Under the pieces are notes generated by a model. The model made no database searches. It saw only the letters and a program-made list of their open reading frames with translations, and was not told the origin of the DNA. Made by a program: the position numbers and the translations under genes. Of a stretch of 64,000 bases of DNA, positions 37,997-45,311 are shown piece by piece; position 1 is the first letter of the stretch, and every line of letters starts with the position of its first letter. Source of the stretch: Paludisphaera mucosa (lineage in GTDB: Bacteria > Planctomycetota > Planctomycetia > Isosphaerales > Isosphaeraceae); NCBI RefSeq assembly GCF_029589435.1, contig NZ_JARRAG010000002.1, positions 4,960,001 to 5,024,000 of the forward strand, read 5' to 3'.

Positions 37997-39337
37997 TCAC
38001 CTCGGCTCGACGAGGAACTCGGTCAGCACGCGGCCGGTCGGGTTCTCCAGGGGGACGCCCAGAAGTCGCGCGATGGTGGGGGCGACGTCGACGTTCTCGA
38101 TGGAGGGGAGCTTCGCGCCTGGCTTGACGCCCGAGCCCGAGGCGACGAACAGGGCGTTCATCTTGGGCTCGGTCGCGAGGAAGCCGTGGCTCCCCTTCTG
38201 GGAGTGCTCCTGGACGAGCGAATCGCCGGCCACGCCGCCGGCGACGCCGTAGCCGTCTTGGGCGGCGACGATCATGTCGGCCATGCCGGGGTGGTCTTCC
38301 GGCCTGGGCAGGCCGTAGCGCGAGAAGTCGGCGGGGTCGAGCACCGCCGCGACGCCCTCGGCGCCTTCAAACAGGCGATGCACCGTCTTGCGGTCCTCGT
38401 CCTTCGTGGCCGGGTGGGTCAGGTAGACCATGCCGATGCCCCCCTCGGGGACGACGTACACTCGCGCGGCGGTCACCTTGTCGTCCTTCTCGGTCAGAAG
38501 GCCCTCCTTGCGGAGGATCGCGTTGGGACGCAGGGTTTTGGAATGGGCGATGAACCCGTGGTCGGCCACGACGAACACCGTGGTCTTCTCGCGGAGCCCG
38601 GCGTCGTCGACGGCCTGGACCACCTTGCCGACGAGGGCGTCGAGCTTGCCCGCCACGATGCGGCCCTGGGGCGTGTTGGGCCCGTGCTGGTGGTGGGTCG
38701 AGTCGAGTTCGAGGAGGTGGAGGGTCAGCAGGTTCGGCTTGCGCTCGCGGAAGACCCGGGCGGCGACCTCGGCCCAGATCTCGTCGCGGCCCGCGCCGCC
38801 GCCTCGCTCGAACGCCTCGACCTGGCCCGCTTTCTCGATCTCGGCCCTGAGGCGTGGCGTGGCGTGGGCGAGCGACCGGGGGACGTCGGGCCAGTTGTCG
38901 TCGATGCTCGCGGACCCGGCGGTGCAGGGCCAGTTGATCGCGGCCGAGGTCAGGCCCTTCGCCTTGATCAGGTCGAACAGCAGCGGGATGCGGACCAGCT
39001 CGTCCTGCGTCCGCTCGGCCGCGACGACGGTGGGGGCGCCCGCCTCGCGCCTCGGCAGGCCGTTGAACAGGACGCCGTGCTTCTCGGGGCGGACGCCCGT
39101 CATCAGCGTCGTGTGGTTCGGCCAGGTGACCGACGGGTTGGCGACGTGCATGCCCTCGGCCGTCGAGGCCCCGGCGTCGCGGAGGCCGCGGATCACCGGC
39201 AGCGAGACCTCGGGGTCGTCGAGGTACCAGGCCGGGAATCCGTCGAGCGAGATCACCACGACGTGCCGGTCCGTCCCGGCCGACGCCCGGCCGGTCGTCG
39301 CCAGCGCCAGCATCGCGAGGCCCAAAAATCGCAGCAT
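37997..39337 (-). CDS. Secreted NPP-like type I phosphodiesterase (alkaline-phosphatase superfamily)
   Basis: The product is 446 aa with a signal peptide (to about residue 20). ISLDGFPAWYL (D32) and the nucleophile segment PSVTWPNHTTLMTG with T71 and N74 are characteristic of nucleotide pyrophosphatase/phosphodiesterases. Further metal ligands lie in DSTHHQHGP, VADHGF and GSHGFL. It likely cleaves phosphodiester or pyrophosphate bonds outside the cytoplasm, perhaps to scavenge phosphate. It is monocistronic and convergent with the adaptor gene. Confidence 0.87.
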   Translation of the reverse strand: MLRFLGLAMLALATTGRASAGTDRHVVVISLDGFPAWYLDDPEVSLPVIRGLRDAGASTAEGMHVANPSVTWPNHTTLMTGVRPEKHGVLFNGLPRREAGAPTVVAAERTQDELVRIPLLFDLIKAKGLTSAAINWPCTAGSASIDDNWPDVPRSLAHATPRLRAEIEKAGQVEAFERGGGAGRDEIWAEVAARVFRERKPNLLTLHLLELDSTHHQHGPNTPQGRIVAGKLDALVGKVVQAVDDAGLREKTTVFVVADHGFIAHSKTLRPNAILRKEGLLTEKDDKVTAARVYVVPEGGIGMVYLTHPATKDEDRKTVHRLFEGAEGVAAVLDPADFSRYGLPRPEDHPGMADMIVAAQDGYGVAGGVAGDSLVQEHSQKGSHGFLATEPKMNALFVASGSGVKPGAKLPSIENVDVAPTIARLLGVPLENPTGRVLTEFLVEPR

Positions 39338-39557: not shown

Positions 39558-41960
39558 TTACGAGCGGCCGGACGACGAGAGCACTGCGAGCCCCTGGGGG
39601 TCTGTCGCGTTCAGCCGCTGGAATCCGCCGACGGACGCCCAGCGCCAGACGCCGTACGGGCCGAAGTCGACGTAGAGCCAGCCGTCGGACGCGGCGGCGA
39701 GCCCCTCGGCGTCGGCCGGGTTCAAGAGCTGAAATCCGCCCTGCGACCAGGACCAAAGGCCGCCGGGCCCGTAGTCGATGAAGAGCGTCCCGCCGGGCCC
39801 GGCCGCGAGGCCCTGGGGGTCGGCGGCGTGCACCTGGAAGAAGCCTCCGGCGTCGGTCCAGAGCCAGAGGCCGTACGCGCCGTAGTCGACGTAGAGCGTC
39901 CCGGCGGGGCCGGCGGCGAGGCCCTGGGGGTCGGCGGTGTTCAGTTGCCGGAAACCGGCCGAGGCGGTCCAACGCCAGAGTCCGTACGCGCCGTAGTCGA
40001 CGTACAGGTCGCCCGACGGGCCCGGCGCGAGTCCCTGGGGGTCGGCCGCGCTCAACTCCCGGAAACCGGCGGCGGCGGTCCAGCGCCAGAGGCCGTACGC
40101 GCCGTAGTCGACGAATAGCGAGCCGTCGCCGCCGGTCGCCAGCCGCTCCGGGTCGGCCGGGCCCAGCGCCTGGAAGCCGCCGGCCTCGGACCAGCGCCAG
40201 AGGCCGTACGCGCCGTAGTCGACGTAAAGCCAGCCGTCGGCGGCGACGGCGAACCCCTGCGGGTCGGCCGTGTTGAGCTGTCTCCAGCCGCCGGCCTCGG
40301 ACCAGCGCCAGAGGCCGAACGCGCCGTAGTCGACGTACAGAGGGTTCAGGTTCGGCGGCGGCGTGGGGATCGTCTGGGTGATCGTCAGGGCGTAGTCCTG
40401 GCCCTGGCTGCGGGAGCCGGCGATCGTGTACTCGCCGTCAGCGTGGATGACCTGGAATCCGGGGTCGGTGATCGACTCGTGGAGGGCGACGACGGCCGGG
40501 CCCACGGCGCGGGCCAGGCGGATGTAGTACGGGCCCGTCGCCTGGGCGATGAACGTCGTCGTGCCATACGACGAGGCTCCGCTCATGGCCGCGACCTTGC
40601 GTCCCGAGGCGTCGTAGATCGTGGCGATGGTCGCGCCGGGGAGGCCGCCGCCGGCGGGGAGGGCCGTCGTGATCGCGTAGGTGGCCCCGGCGAAGGCGTC
40701 GATCCGGTAGACGTCGGCCGGGACGCCGGCGAGCGTCGTCGTGCGCGAGTAGGTCCCGCCGGCGAAGGCGACGGCCTGCGCGGCCGCGGCGATGTCGTGC
40801 GGCTCGTCGCCGGCGCGGCCCGTCAGGGTGGCTTCGAGATGGAACGACGTCGAGGCCGCGATCGCCGACGTGGGCGTCGTGAACGTGTAGCCGCTCTGCC
40901 CGGCCGTGCTCGCGCCGATCCAGTACCGTCCGCCGGTCGTGAACGTGTAGGTGAGGTCTTCCTTGCCGGGCGCGGCCGAGGTGTTGTTGTTCTGGAGGAC
41001 CACGCCGCCGGAGTCGTTGAAGATCTTGAGGTAGCTGTCCACGCCCTGCTCGCCGGCCGTCGAGCCGTCGAAGGTGCGGAGGTGCAGCGTGTCGCCGGCC
41101 AGGACGTCGAGCCGCATCAGGTAGACGCCCCGCGACGGGATCACCTCGACCTGCGCCGAGCCGTCGCCCTGGCCGCCGGTGAACAGGTCGAGGTCGCGGT
41201 CGAAGCGGGGGGTCGCCGTCGCCACGGTCCAGCCGAAGTCCTCCAGGAAGCCCCATTCCAGGGCCGTCAGGTCGTTCCGCTCGCCCTGGTTCGTGACCGG
41301 GTTCATGATCGAGGGGACCTGGGCGGCGACGTGCGACCCGACCATCGGCACGGCCGCGCCGCCGTGCGCCGCCTCGGCGTCGGGCCCGGTGAAGGCGCCG
41401 CCCTGGAGGAAGCGGGCGAACGTCGGCTGGCTCGACAGGAACCCCAGCGCGTGCAGGAACTCGTGGCGCGCCACCGTGACGAAGTCGACCTCGTCGTTGG
41501 TCAGGCCCGACGTCGTGGGGCCGAAGAACCAGCTCGTGCCGCCGTCGAACTTCAGGTAAGCGATGTCGGGCGCGTAGTCGTTCGCCCCCTGGCCCCGCAT
41601 CCCATTGTTCGTGCCGCTCGTGAAATAACTGCCCCCCTGGGCCACGCTGCCGTCGGTCAGGGTGTCGCCGTAGGCGTAGACCTTGACGACGTCGGCCGGG
41701 ACGCTCGTCGTGACGACCCGGCTCCCGCCGGCCGTCGCCAGCGGATACGCGGCCGAGGGGACCGCCGCCAGCGAGTCGCCCAGCCGCGCGGCGATCGCGC
41801 CCAGGGTGGATTCCAGGAGGGCCCGGCGATCGGCGGTGAAGAACCCCGAGGAGTCGAGCGAGTAGTCGAACGCCAGCGACACCGCCATGAGCCGGCGGTC
41901 TTCCAACTCCTCGCACCCCGGCGCGCGGCCGCGCCGCCGGATCCGTCCCCTCGTCGTCAT
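39558..41960 (-). CDS. Secreted metzincin-like metalloprotease with PPC domains and seven C-terminal repeats
   Basis: The product is 800 aa. The N-terminus has ELEDRRLMAV, a motif typical of exported planctomycete giant and surface proteins. A zincin domain (about 40-250) carries HEFLHALGFLSS (H166, E167, H170). The usual metzincin third ligand at H+10 is Ser176, but H199 or H210 lies before a Met-turn SIMNP (M219), the leishmanolysin-like arrangement with a distant third His. Two pre-peptidase C-terminal-like beta domains follow (about 260-530). Residues 541-799 are seven ~37-residue repeats of the type LYVDYGAYGLWRW...GGFxxLxxADPQGLA. GGGGGAC precedes the ATG. It is divergent from the PVC cytochrome gene. 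Confidence 0.85.
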   Translation of the reverse strand: MTTRGRIRRRGRAPGCEELEDRRLMAVSLAFDYSLDSSGFFTADRRALLESTLGAIAARLGDSLAAVPSAAYPLATAGGSRVVTTSVPADVVKVYAYGDTLTDGSVAQGGSYFTSGTNNGMRGQGANDYAPDIAYLKFDGGTSWFFGPTTSGLTNDEVDFVTVARHEFLHALGFLSSQPTFARFLQGGAFTGPDAEAAHGGAAVPMVGSHVAAQVPSIMNPVTNQGERNDLTALEWGFLEDFGWTVATATPRFDRDLDLFTGGQGDGSAQVEVIPSRGVYLMRLDVLAGDTLHLRTFDGSTAGEQGVDSYLKIFNDSGGVVLQNNNTSAAPGKEDLTYTFTTGGRYWIGASTAGQSGYTFTTPTSAIAASTSFHLEATLTGRAGDEPHDIAAAAQAVAFAGGTYSRTTTLAGVPADVYRIDAFAGATYAITTALPAGGGLPGATIATIYDASGRKVAAMSGASSYGTTTFIAQATGPYYIRLARAVGPAVVALHESITDPGFQVIHADGEYTIAGSRSQGQDYALTITQTIPTPPPNLNPLYVDYGAFGLWRWSEAGGWRQLNTADPQGFAVAADGWLYVDYGAYGLWRWSEAGGFQALGPADPERLATGGDGSLFVDYGAYGLWRWTAAAGFRELSAADPQGLAPGPSGDLYVDYGAYGLWRWTASAGFRQLNTADPQGLAAGPAGTLYVDYGAYGLWLWTDAGGFFQVHAADPQGLAAGPGGTLFIDYGPGGLWSWSQGGFQLLNPADAEGLAAASDGWLYVDFGPYGVWRWASVGGFQRLNATDPQGLAVLSSSGRS
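39561..40340 (-). repeat. Seven tandem ~111-bp coding repeats
   Basis: The DNA word gccgtagtcgacgta recurs with a spacing of 111 bases (108 once) through the 3' end of the metzincin gene. Repeats 2-5 are the most alike; repeats 6 and 7 drift (IDYGPGGLWSW, VDFGPYGVWRW). Each unit encodes 36-37 residues with conserved VDYG, LWRW and ADPQGLA blocks, most consistent with the blades of a small propeller. Confidence 0.85.
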
Positions 41961-42179
41961 GGCGTCCCCCCGCGAGCCCGGCGTGCGCAGCCTTCCCGCT
42001 CCCACGAGCGCTACCAGGAATCCTAGCTCATCGTTCCCCGACCGTCCCAGCTCGGTCCGCGGATTTCCGGCGGCCGGCTCGATGCCCGGACGAATCAGGT
42101 CGGCGGTTGACGCACGGGCCGCCGAGCCGCTACAACAGATAAGCTGACGCTTGAACATTCTCTCTTGGATTCGTCTCCC

Positions 42180-45100
42180 ATGATGCGCGTGCGATGGCTG
42201 CAGGGCGTGGTCGGTCTGGCGGGCTGGGCGTGGCTGGCGGCCGCGGCGGTCGGCGGGGAGTCGCCCGCGGCGGGGGCGGGGCGGAAGCTCGTCGTGCCCG
42301 AGGGGTTCGCGATCGAGCGGGTCGCGGGGGCGCCGCTGGTGGACCGGCCGATCACGGCGGCGTTCGACGAGCGGGGGCGGCTGTACGTGGCCGACTCGTC
42401 GGGGTCGAACGAGAAGGTCGAGATCCAGCTCGAGAAGAAGCCGCACCGCATCGTCCGGCTCGAGGACGAGGACGGCGACGGCGTGTTCGACGCCCGGACC
42501 GTCTTCGCCGACGGCATGATGTTCCCCGAGGGGACGATGTGGCTGGACGGCTCGCTCTACGTCGCCGCCCCGCCCAGCATCTGGAAGCTCACCGACACGG
42601 ACGACGACGGCGTGGCCGACGAGCGCGTCGAGTGGTTCCAGGGCAAGACCCTTACCGGCTGCGCCAACGACCTGCACGGGCCCTACCCGGGCCTCGACGG
42701 CCGCGTCTACTGGACCAAGGGGGCGTTCGCCCAGCAGACCTACGGGCGGCCGGGCAAGGAGCCGTTCGTCACCAACGCGGCGCACGTCTTCCGGGCCCGG
42801 CCCGACGGCTCGGAGATCGAGCCCGTGCTGACCGGCGGCATGGACAACCCGGTCGACGTCGCGTTCAGCCCCGGCGGCGAGCGGTTCCTGACCTCGACCT
42901 TCCTGCAGCAGCCCGGCGGCGGCTTCCGCGACGGCCTGATCCACGCGGTCTACGGCGGCGTCTGGGGCAAGGTGAACCGCGTGCTCGACGCGCCCGCCCA
43001 CAAGTGGAGCGGCCCCGGCGTCATGCCGGCGCTGCTGCACATGGGACCCGCCGCCCCCTCCGGGCTGACCTGCGTCGAGTCGACGGCGCTGGGCGAGGGG
43101 TTCCAGGACAACCTGTTCGCCTGCTACTTCAACCTACACAAGGTCGGCCGGCACGTCCTGACGCCGTCGGGGGCGACTTACGCGACCAAGGATGAAGACT
43201 TCATCACGAGTCCCGACCTGGACTTCCACCCGACCGACGTGATCGAGGACGCCGACGGCAGCCTGATCGTGGTCGACACCGGCGGCTGGTACAAGCTCTG
43301 CTGCCCGACCTCGCAGCTCTCCAAGCCCGACGAGCTGGGGGGCGTGTACCGGGTCCGCCGCAAGGGCTCCCCCAAAATCGCCGATCCCCGCGGGCTGCGG
43401 GTCGAGTGGAAGAAGCTGGGCCCGGTGGACCTCGCCGCGCTGCTCTGCGACTCGCGGCCGACCGTCCGCCGCCGCGCCGCGGCGGCGCTCGGGGCGCTCG
43501 GAGGCGGGGCCCTGCCGGCCCTGTCCGACGTCGCCCAGCGGTGCCGCGTCGTCGAGGGCCGGCGCAACGCGGTCTGGGCTTCGGCCCGGATCGAGGGCCC
43601 TGAAGCCCGAGCCGTGGCCCGCGTCGGCCTGACCGACGGCGACGAGTCGGTGCGCCAGGCCGCCGCCAACGTCGTCAGCCTGACCCGCGACGCCGATGCG
43701 CTGCCGCTCCTGGTGGCGATGCTGGAGGGCCCCTCGCTGCTCAACCGCCGCGTCGCGGCCGAGGCCCTGGGACGGATCGGCGACAAGGCGGCGATCGACG
43801 CCCTCCTCCAGGCGCTCGACGACTCGGCGGCCGACGACCGCTTCCTGCACCACGCGCTGACCTACGCCCTGATCCAGATCGGCGACCCGCCGGCCACGGC
43901 CGTGGGGCTCCGCTCGGCCAGCCCGAGGGTGAGGCGCGCGGCCCTGATGGCTCTCGACCAGATGGACGGCGGCGGCCTCGACGCCCGCAAGACCGCCGCG
44001 CTCCTGGCCGACCCCGACCCCGGCGTCAAGGAGGCCGCCGCGTGGATCATCGGCCGCCGCCCCGAGTGGGGCCAGGACCTCGCCGGGTTCTTCGGCGACC
44101 GCCTGAGCCGCGAGGACCTCGCCCCCGCCGACCGCGCGACGATGGAGGGCCAACTCGCCCGCAACGCCGCCGCGCCGGCCGTCCGCGACCTGCTCGCCGC
44201 GACCGTCTCGACCCCCGACGCCGGCGTCCCGGCCCGGCTGAGCGCCCTCAAGGCGATGGCCCAGGTCCGCGCGAAGGAGATCCCCGAGGCCTGGATCGCC
44301 GGCCTGGCCGCGACCCTCGCCGGCCCCGACGCGGTCGTCGCCCGCCAGGCCGTGGCGACGGCCCGCGCCCTGGCCCCGCCTCCCGAGAAGGGGCAGGCCC
44401 TGACGGCCCCGCTGCTGGCCCTGGCCGGCCGCCCCGACTTCCCCGCCGACGGCCGCCTCGAGGCCCTCGCCGCGGTCCCCGGCGGCCTGGCGAGCGTCGC
44501 CCCCGACACCTTCGCCTTCCTGACCTCGAAGCTCGACCCCGAGGGGACGGTCGCCGCCCGCGGCCTGGCGTCCGACGTCCTGGCCCGCGCCAGGCTCGCG
44601 CCCGAGCAGCTCGCCGCGCTGGTCGAGGCGCTCGGCGGCGCCGGACCGCTCGAGGTCGACCGCCTGCTGACGGCCTTCGACGCCCAGGCGGACGACGCGC
44701 TCGGCGTCAAGCTGGTCGAGGCCCTGGCCGGCTCGTCGGCCCTGTCGAGCCTGCGGGTCGACGCGCTCAAGACCCACCTGGCGAAGTTCGGCCCGGCGAC
44801 GCACAAGGCGGCCGAGTCCCTGTACAACCGGCTCAACGCCGACGCCGGCAAGCAGCAGGCGCGGCTCGACGACCTGCTGGGCAAGATGAGCAGCGGCGAC
44901 GTCCGCCGCGGCCAGCTCGTCTTCCAGGGCGAGAAGTCCGCCTGCACGACCTGCCACGCCATCGGCTACCGCGGCGGCGACGTCGGCCCCGACCTGACCC
45001 GAATCGGCGGCGTCCGCACCGAGCGCGACCTGCTGGAGGCCGTCCTCTACCCCAGCGCCAGCTTCGTCCGCAGCTACGAGCCCGTGGTCATCGCCACCGC

Positions 45101-45311
45101 CGACGGCAAGGTGGTCAACGGGCTCTTGAAGTCTGAGACGCCGGACGAGTACGTGCTGGTCACCGGCGCCAACCAGACCGCCCGCATCCCCCGCGGCGAC
45201 GTCGAGGAGATCCGCCCCGGCACGGTCTCGGTCATGCCCGCCGGCCTCGATCAGCAACTCTCCCCCCAGGACCTCGCCGACCTCGTCGCGTTCCTGAGGG
45301 CGTGCAAATAG
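42180..45311 (+). CDS. PVC-type propeller / HEAT / cytochrome c protein
   Basis: The product is 1043 aa with a signal peptide (to about residue 25). Domain 1 (about 35-400) is a glucose/sorbosone-dehydrogenase-like propeller of the 'membrane-bound dehydrogenase' type (VPEGFAIERVAG, GRLYVADS, FSPGGERFLTSTF). Domain 2 (about 430-880) is HEAT repeats. Domain 3 is the PVC heme-binding domain with CTTCH (C922, C925, H926) and GGDVGPDLTRIGG. Such proteins are characteristic of Planctomycetes-Verrucomicrobia and probably oxidise a sugar or alcohol and pass electrons to the heme; the substrate is unknown. A second ATG directly follows the first. Confidence 0.92.
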   Translation: MMRVRWLQGVVGLAGWAWLAAAAVGGESPAAGAGRKLVVPEGFAIERVAGAPLVDRPITAAFDERGRLYVADSSGSNEKVEIQLEKKPHRIVRLEDEDGDGVFDARTVFADGMMFPEGTMWLDGSLYVAAPPSIWKLTDTDDDGVADERVEWFQGKTLTGCANDLHGPYPGLDGRVYWTKGAFAQQTYGRPGKEPFVTNAAHVFRARPDGSEIEPVLTGGMDNPVDVAFSPGGERFLTSTFLQQPGGGFRDGLIHAVYGGVWGKVNRVLDAPAHKWSGPGVMPALLHMGPAAPSGLTCVESTALGEGFQDNLFACYFNLHKVGRHVLTPSGATYATKDEDFITSPDLDFHPTDVIEDADGSLIVVDTGGWYKLCCPTSQLSKPDELGGVYRVRRKGSPKIADPRGLRVEWKKLGPVDLAALLCDSRPTVRRRAAAALGALGGGALPALSDVAQRCRVVEGRRNAVWASARIEGPEARAVARVGLTDGDESVRQAAANVVSLTRDADALPLLVAMLEGPSLLNRRVAAEALGRIGDKAAIDALLQALDDSAADDRFLHHALTYALIQIGDPPATAVGLRSASPRVRRAALMALDQMDGGGLDARKTAALLADPDPGVKEAAAWIIGRRPEWGQDLAGFFGDRLSREDLAPADRATMEGQLARNAAAPAVRDLLAATVSTPDAGVPARLSALKAMAQVRAKEIPEAWIAGLAATLAGPDAVVARQAVATARALAPPPEKGQALTAPLLALAGRPDFPADGRLEALAAVPGGLASVAPDTFAFLTSKLDPEGTVAARGLASDVLARARLAPEQLAALVEALGGAGPLEVDRLLTAFDAQADDALGVKLVEALAGSSALSSLRVDALKTHLAKFGPATHKAAESLYNRLNADAGKQQARLDDLLGKMSSGDVRRGQLVFQGEKSACTTCHAIGYRGGDVGPDLTRIGGVRTERDLLEAVLYPSASFVRSYEPVVIATADGKVVNGLLKSETPDEYVLVTGANQTARIPRGDVEEIRPGTVSVMPAGLDQQLSPQDLADLVAFLRACK

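Follow-up and report, generated by a model that had tools for sequence, protein, structure and literature searches.

It is poorly understood how planctomycetes position the proteins they export on their unusual envelope. A gene of Paludisphaera mucosa raises this question at a single locus: it encodes a putative exported protease ending in a row of regular repeats, and we asked what such a tail could do and to which known repeats it is related. The gene lies on the minus strand at positions 39558-41960 of the window, by which we mean the whole stretch of 64,000 nucleotides analyzed here (G000:C2:4960001-5024000, within the 8.2 Mb genome G000). Its product of 800 residues, read from the ATG at 41960, is probably an exported metalloprotease with a C-terminal propeller, judging from the open reading frame and from same-genus homologues. 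A preliminary description of the locus had placed the gene correctly, leaving the strand unstated. In order, the protein comprises an Arg-rich N-terminus, a catalytic domain (residues 27-251), two beta-sandwiches (252-383 and 384-531), a Pro-rich linker and seven repeats (541-800). Our preferred reading, to which we give a probability of roughly one half, is that this is an exported zinc endoprotease and that a genus-specific propeller module most likely holds such proteins to a surface or matrix glycan. Sequence supplied the domain order, the zinc triad, the blade number and the distribution in the searched genomes, and models supplied both folds; from these we infer export, proteolysis, closure of the ring, glycan binding and tethering.

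The tail (residues 541-800; 39561..40340, minus strand) was delimited by its repeats, an AlphaFold prediction and structural comparison with VIA. The repeats start at residues 541, 578, 615, 652, 689, 726 and 762 and measure 37, 37, 37, 37, 37, 36 and 39 residues, the final one including the C-terminus. In the DNA, Tandem Repeats Finder reported a 111-bp period in 6.8 copies at 39586-40337 with a score of 621 (725 for the doubled period); the second-best array within the window scored 79. The preliminary description had spoken of seven near-identical terminal repeats. Their number and position at the C-terminus held up, whereas the near-identity was overstated, as protein identity between blades ranges from 0.50 to 0.78 (median 0.59). 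AlphaFold modelled the tail from eight aligned sequences with a predicted local distance difference test score (pLDDT) of 93.6, a predicted template modelling score (pTM) of 0.90 and 28 strands in seven groups of four. As had been proposed earlier, the model supports one seven-bladed propeller, whose closure is suggested by the strand count and by matches to closed rings. Because every unit opens with strand B and the C-terminus falls in strand A, closure would need the last strand A to complete the first blade. All six extracted same-genus homologues retain seven blades. Blades 3-5 of the window protein are the most alike (protein identity 0.70-0.78), and the ten pairs among blades 1-5 show DNA identities of 0.70-0.82, with 57-86% agreement among same-amino-acid codons; since high G+C codon bias alone could yield such agreement, we claim no recent blade duplication. 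Blade identity is 0.55 for the same position in different proteins, 0.54 for different blades of one protein and 0.49 when both position and protein differ.

A profile of the tail, searched against 45 genomes of the family Isosphaeraceae, matched 6/6 Paludisphaera genomes and 0/39 others. This genus-restricted distribution of the tail propeller among the family genomes searched is newly seen here. A profile search of genome contigs returned five loci, in Paludisphaera soli JC670 and Planctomycetales bacterium 71-10, and no tail relative was confirmed on viral contigs or plasmids (phages and metagenome contigs lay outside this search). The six genus genomes yielded 41 intact tails, 15 with seven blades, 26 with eight and none with any other number, as counted with a blade model built from the same 41 tails. 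Left out of this set were a broken copy (L042) and L031 4119-5414, which is part of a protein counted as L011; a weak match at G001:C1:4723524 (L092) has no open reading frame with at least three blades. In the broken copy (L042, 2722-3658), stop codons interrupt what was a propeller-tail gene. Every one of the 41 tails is C-terminal, with 0-18 residues after the final blade. Genomes G000 to G005 carry 11, 4, 1, 10, 10 and 5 tails, respectively. The only tail of G002 is the protease's own, compared with 10-11 tails in G000, G003 and G004, which indicates strong lineage differences in expansion.

The two sizes have different partners. According to Pfam searches of all 41 proteins, Calx-beta precedes the tail in 24/26 eight-bladed and 0/15 seven-bladed cases. 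The eight-bladed set may share one ancestor, and we therefore regard the Calx-beta link as an association and not as 41 independent events. Upstream of the 15 seven-bladed tails are seven proteases, three Big_9, two PPC-like and one CAP domain, and two proteins there were without a family. An LE.R-type motif was found in 36 of the 41 propeller-tail proteins. Two tandem arrays were also observed: six same-strand genes at 2748-15868 of L037 (G000:C2:4498000-4517500), each with Calx-beta and an eight-bladed tail, and a similar six-gene array in G004 (L082). Because the same propeller type ends dozens of proteins of the genus, it resembles a shared attachment device. In the open-licence papers that our searches listed, we met no account of a C-terminal propeller private to the genus and fixed in size. 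Such a module, ending dozens of proteins that are probably exported, is the broader finding of this work and worth following.

What could such a device attach to? The tail model was compared with 975 chains by VIA, a re-alignment of Foldseek candidates in which the absence of a family shows nothing. Rows 1-18 were all Photorhabdus PLL/PHL lectins (Z 22.3-23.7, 2.3-2.5 Å, 250-253 residues), headed by a PLL lectin with Z 23.7 and 2.3 Å over 250 residues. An S9 carboxypeptidase (22.0) stood in row 19 and the lectin CV39L (21.5) in row 20, followed by RCC1, WD40 and other propellers (at most 21.5). From the predicted fold and by analogy, a lectin or anchoring role of the tail is plausible.

Several observations weigh against a glycan-holding exported protease. 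Propellers also act as protein-protein scaffolds. VIA rows within 1 Z of each other count as tied; by this measure the PLL rows at the lower end (22.3) are level with the S9 carboxypeptidase (22.0), and the lead of the lectins is therefore modest. Foldseek placed virginiamycin B lyase, a propeller enzyme, first among its matches of the tail. No PLL lectin was listed in the PDB by the tail sequence profile up to E 10, and no sugar-binding residue pattern was shown for the tail; the fucose site of PHL uses two Trp between blades (PMC5584973). The PF07595-like export motif of the window protein scored 12.6 bits, under the Pfam cut-off of 25.5. Leishmanolysin, with which the catalytic domain is compared below, was not among the best 50 Foldseek rows for the 514-residue model. 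Finally, Mep72, an exported metzincin of P. aeruginosa, loses its binding domains on export (PMC4334185), and tethering therefore need not be permanent.

It is unlikely, in our view, though well worth weighing, that the tail is instead a sugar-free docking propeller, by which all of these proteins would attach to a single receptor at the surface or to a single component of secretion, like dockerins or type IX C-terminal domains. The invariably C-terminal position behind diverse N-terminal partners would fit such docking, as would the strong conservation of core residues (D 97%, G 96% and 100%, W 95% in the blades of seven-bladed tails), although the conserved positions may well be structural. 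However, when blades at the same position are compared from protein to protein, their mean identity is 0.31-0.55, which is low for one shared partner, and rings of seven and eight blades would present different faces.

The homologues of the protease outside the genus bear on a further alternative. In their C-terminal parts, 9 of the 19 have FG-GAP repeats, 4 Calx-beta, 2 DUF11 and 4 none of these; these parts were read from loci with flanks of about 1.5 kb, and the tails of L016, L023 and L036, which reach the locus end, may be cut. With FG-GAP repeats in 9/19, a propeller behind the protease thus recurs, taken from a different propeller family. Were the Paludisphaera tail mainly structural, it would be a stable, protease-resistant cap with no specific ligand, and its very regular blades, the near absence of Cys (at most one beyond the motif in each of the 36 propeller-tail proteins counted) and its occurrence in one genus of the family would all be in line with this. 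The FG-GAP repeats of the outside homologues nonetheless suggest that the propeller has a job there, and we consider a cap without a ligand rather improbable.

By sequence, the tail falls between NHL and VCBS/FG-GAP propellers. The tectonin-type propeller proposed earlier found no support: Pfam listed no tectonin family for the tail up to E 10, and the relatives that profile searches of the repeat did recover were of the NHL and VCBS/FG-GAP types. A search with the tectonin profile PF19193 gave no match, its control being likewise silent, and a Laccaria tectonin appeared at rank 34 in the Foldseek list of the tail. Pfam NHL scored 27.8 bits on the isolated tail and 18.4 on the whole protein (cut-off 20). 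NHL, SSL_N and DUF6960 were each listed in 7/8 aligned tails at E≤10. Against the PDB, the tail profile gave weak NHL-type matches (E 0.003-0.1), with Pizza and PknD at E 0.003-0.005.

In a phylum sample of 392 genomes, the tail profile matched 14, including its own; 12 of the 13 others matched weakly (E 4e-5 to 9e-4), and weak relatives may have been missed because at most six candidates per genome were scored. The sole strong match outside the genus, L053 in G399 (E 2.7e-16), is a VCBS/FG-GAP protein (PF01839, 47.3 bits), in which seven repeats of the form VIIDFG-GIW...W..L....P..I..GD.DGNGQDD were discerned by eye. Searched against the family, L053 had genus tails as its two best matches (E 4e-15 and 2e-14; 36-37% identity). 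In the phylum sample its best matches after itself were VCBS-type, in G262 (E 3e-34) and G069 (8e-20), and the tails of the P. mucosa genome (3e-14) came next. As L053 is closer to other VCBS-type proteins, the tail would be a side branch and not the closest kin of L053. The G262 locus L111 (1-2088) encodes a VCBS variant with LIVDFG repeats near L053, possibly a bridge family. Two-blade profile alignment linked the tail to the VCBS set (L053, L111) with 94.8% probability over 70 columns, to an NHL-like set with 86.1% over 36 columns (about one blade) and to the FG-GAP repeats of the protease homologues with 0.2%, a comparison biased by the choice of L053 and the NHL-like set for matching the tail profile and of L111 for matching L053.

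VCBS/FG-GAP blades carry DxDxDG in loop AB, a motif that is not universal in the supercluster (PMC8023676). This calcium loop is not present in the tail, which reads x-DG or similar and is about five residues shorter at this point. A candidate loop-CD G, which may correspond to the G of the published VCBS G/W pair, is found in 85% of the blades of seven-bladed and 71% of those of eight-bladed tails, the next residue being mostly F (40%) or W (47%). We read the tail blade as related to VCBS blades, free of their calcium loop and with an A-B hairpin of NHL-like kind; which way the change went is our presumption. Ordinary FG-GAP propellers are also numerous in the P. mucosa genome: FG-GAP_3 had at least 81 matches among the 150 of 170 candidates that were scored, and the tail is not among the matches listed. 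We speculate, with more doubt than conviction, that a docking propeller arose in Paludisphaera from a calcium-loop-free offshoot of the VCBS type and comes in two partner-tied sizes, eight blades with Calx-beta and seven with protease, CAP, Big_9 or PPC-like domains. On the protease it would take the place that FG-GAP has in other planctomycetes, and it would form a private tethering system for dozens of exported proteins.

The other half of our preferred reading, zinc-dependent proteolysis, concerns the catalytic domain (about residues 27-251; 41208..41882, minus strand), whose leishmanolysin-like fold was assigned by the VIA match of the predicted model. We aligned the window protein with MAFFT to homologues from its own genus (six) and from the genomes of other planctomycetes (19; n=26 in all); these are the homologues with a locus, and hits without one (e.g., G005:C40 and G047:C1:5694511) were left out. 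H166, E167, H170, G173 and H210 are invariant in 26/26. The motif HEFLH (residues 166-170; 41451..41465, minus strand) would provide two zinc ligands and the catalytic Glu, and H210 (41331..41333, minus strand) the third ligand; in all 26 proteins, the third His lies 38-43 residues downstream of HEXXH. Position 219 in the Met-turn SIMNP (M219; 41304..41306, minus strand) holds Met in 20 proteins, while 5 have Leu there and 1 has Phe. The HEXXH motif, H199, H210 and the Met-turn, all noted in the preliminary description, are indeed present; the unusual zinc site that it had proposed was rejected. H210 accounts for the site, and H199 is shared by just 2/26 proteins. By sequence conservation, the zinc ligands are H166, H170 and H210 in a regular HEXXH-X39-H arrangement.

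AlphaFold modelled residues 27-540 (514 residues) with a mean pLDDT of 87 and a pTM of 0.66. In VIA, the top match of this model was leishmanolysin 1lml (Z 15.5, 2.8 Å over 199 residues, 16% identity), and the catalytic domains of matrix metalloproteinases (MMPs) scored Z 8.6-9.8 in the same list. This ranking and the invariant H210 bear out, at the level of the model, the earlier suggestion of a leishmanolysin-like protease with a distant third His. Profile evidence for known families was weaker. NF038122 (metallo_LGF), for which no account was found in the open-licence library searched, scored 36.4-39.6 bits on the window protein and 31.6 by genome search against a curated cut-off of 80, and it matched 25/26 aligned protease domains at E≤1 around HEXXHxLGF. 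Matrixins (M10) have the third His at a short fixed spacing, HEXXHXXGXXH. Membership in this family was rejected: HEFLHALGFLS has Ser at the place of the third His, and Pfam M10 gave the window protein 14 bits against a cut-off of 24. Some outside-genus homologues exceed this cut-off (e.g., L017 and L029). Pfam Peptidase_M8 was not listed for the window protein up to E 10, and a Peptidase_M8 search of its own genome gave no match, with the control likewise silent. A profile of the protease alignment gave weak matches to karilysin (best E 8e-5) and MMPs around HEXXH, and leishmanolysin was absent among the best 60 of 105 rows. M8 proteases have conserved, disulfide-forming cysteines; because the window protein has a single Cys, at position 16, and no M8 profile match, we did not file it as an M8 member. 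The catalytic part is apparently a bacterial relative of leishmanolysin by predicted fold, without propeptide or disulfides. Matches to an alphavirus capsid protein (phmmer E 0.29, Pfam E 0.11) and the other sub-threshold Pfam rows of the window protein were taken as chance. A degenerate, inactive metzincin serving as a binding domain is very improbable: the Met-turn residue is changed in 6/26 aligned proteins and the scores fall under the NF038122 and M10 cut-offs, yet H166, E167, H170 and H210 are kept throughout, and in the window protein neither a ligand nor the Met is missing.

Between the protease and the tail, VIA and the Pfam matches of homologues point to two sandwiches resembling PPC and collagen-binding domains. 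Domain 1 (about residues 252-383; 40812..41207, minus strand) matched the extra N-terminal region of DeCLIC (6v4s; Z 10.2, 3.0 Å over 103 residues), and domain 2 (about residues 384-531; 40368..40811, minus strand) the collagen-binding domain of ColH (3jqw; Z 12.5, 2.6 Å over 109 residues). In five of the six homologues of the genus, Pfam PPC exceeded its cut-off; its best stretch fell within domain 1 in two of these five and within domain 2 in the other three. At the other end, the Arg-rich residues 1-26 (41883..41960, minus strand) finish with LEDRRLMA at residues 19-26, a planctomycete extracellular-type, PF07595-like motif whose L, E and R are kept in at least 90% of the 26-protein alignment. 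The frame is open beyond ATG 41960 in the upstream direction, and this motif guided the choice of that start. No propeptide is visible, as the modelled catalytic domain begins directly after the export motif.

Taken together, a putative mechanism can be outlined for a glycan-tethered protease. The export motif would direct the protein outside the cell. Zinc would then be held by the HEXXH helix together with the distant H210, with E167 activating water and M219 lying beneath the metal, and peptide bonds would be cleaved by zinc and E167, the ligands being assigned by conservation. The two sandwiches may serve as a spacer or in substrate binding, as their folds suggest. The ring, with its first unit starting at strand B and its last ending with strand A, would close and tether the protease, most likely to a glycan, as fold and analogy suggest.

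The best homologue in each of the 5/5 other genus genomes is 55-69% identical to the window protein. Two adjacent copies of the protease gene are found at G003:C13:18625-23651 (loci L011, L031 and L095). In the window, the gene is flanked by what appear by eye to be an alkaline-phosphatase-superfamily enzyme (37997-39337, minus strand) and a large HEAT/cytochrome-c-motif protein (42165-45311, plus strand). Within fetched regions of 17-19 kb, both flanking genes lie beside the protease in 2/5 relatives (L094 and L096); neither L093 nor L097 has kept both, and the matches in L095 are restricted to genes farther away. With the flanks conserved in only 2/5 relatives, we claim no functional neighbour or operon.

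If one module ends many probably exported proteins of a genus, it offers a handle, and its ligand would locate the whole protein set. The tails also constitute a natural experiment on blade number, with related blades in rows of seven and eight only within one genus, the number going with the domain upstream. The set of seven- and eight-bladed tails bears on a published question, namely how propellers that have been newly amplified come to a settled blade number (PMC9218822).

Several known systems resemble parts of this protein. Leishmanolysin/gp63 (MEROPS M8) shares the HEXXH, the distant third His and the Met-turn and is the first VIA match; unlike it, the window protein is bacterial, has only 16% identity, one Cys, no Pfam M8 match and no visible propeptide, and ends in a propeller. 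NF038122 aligns around HEXXHxLGF, but the window protein stays far under its 80-bit cut-off. The Photorhabdus PLL/PHL lectins have seven four-stranded blades, like the tail model, whereas the tail blades measure 36-37 residues and the sequence profile lists no PLL up to E 10. Compared with VCBS/FG-GAP propellers, to which the L053 match (E 2.7e-16) and the two-blade alignment (94.8%) connect it, the tail has a reduced calcium loop. NHL propellers (PknD, streptogramin B lyase and the designed Pizza) are related through the above-cut-off score of the isolated tail and weak PDB matches; in contrast, the profile alignment covers about one blade and the NHL-like planctomycete matches are weak (E 1e-4 to 1e-3). 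Mep72 has tandem C-terminal carbohydrate-binding domains, and alginate slows its autodegradation (PMC4334185). Similar to our protein as we read it, Mep72 is an exported metzincin with carbohydrate-binding domains at its C-terminus; it differs in having carbohydrate-binding module-type domains and no propeller, in using type II secretion and in having these domains cut apart on export.

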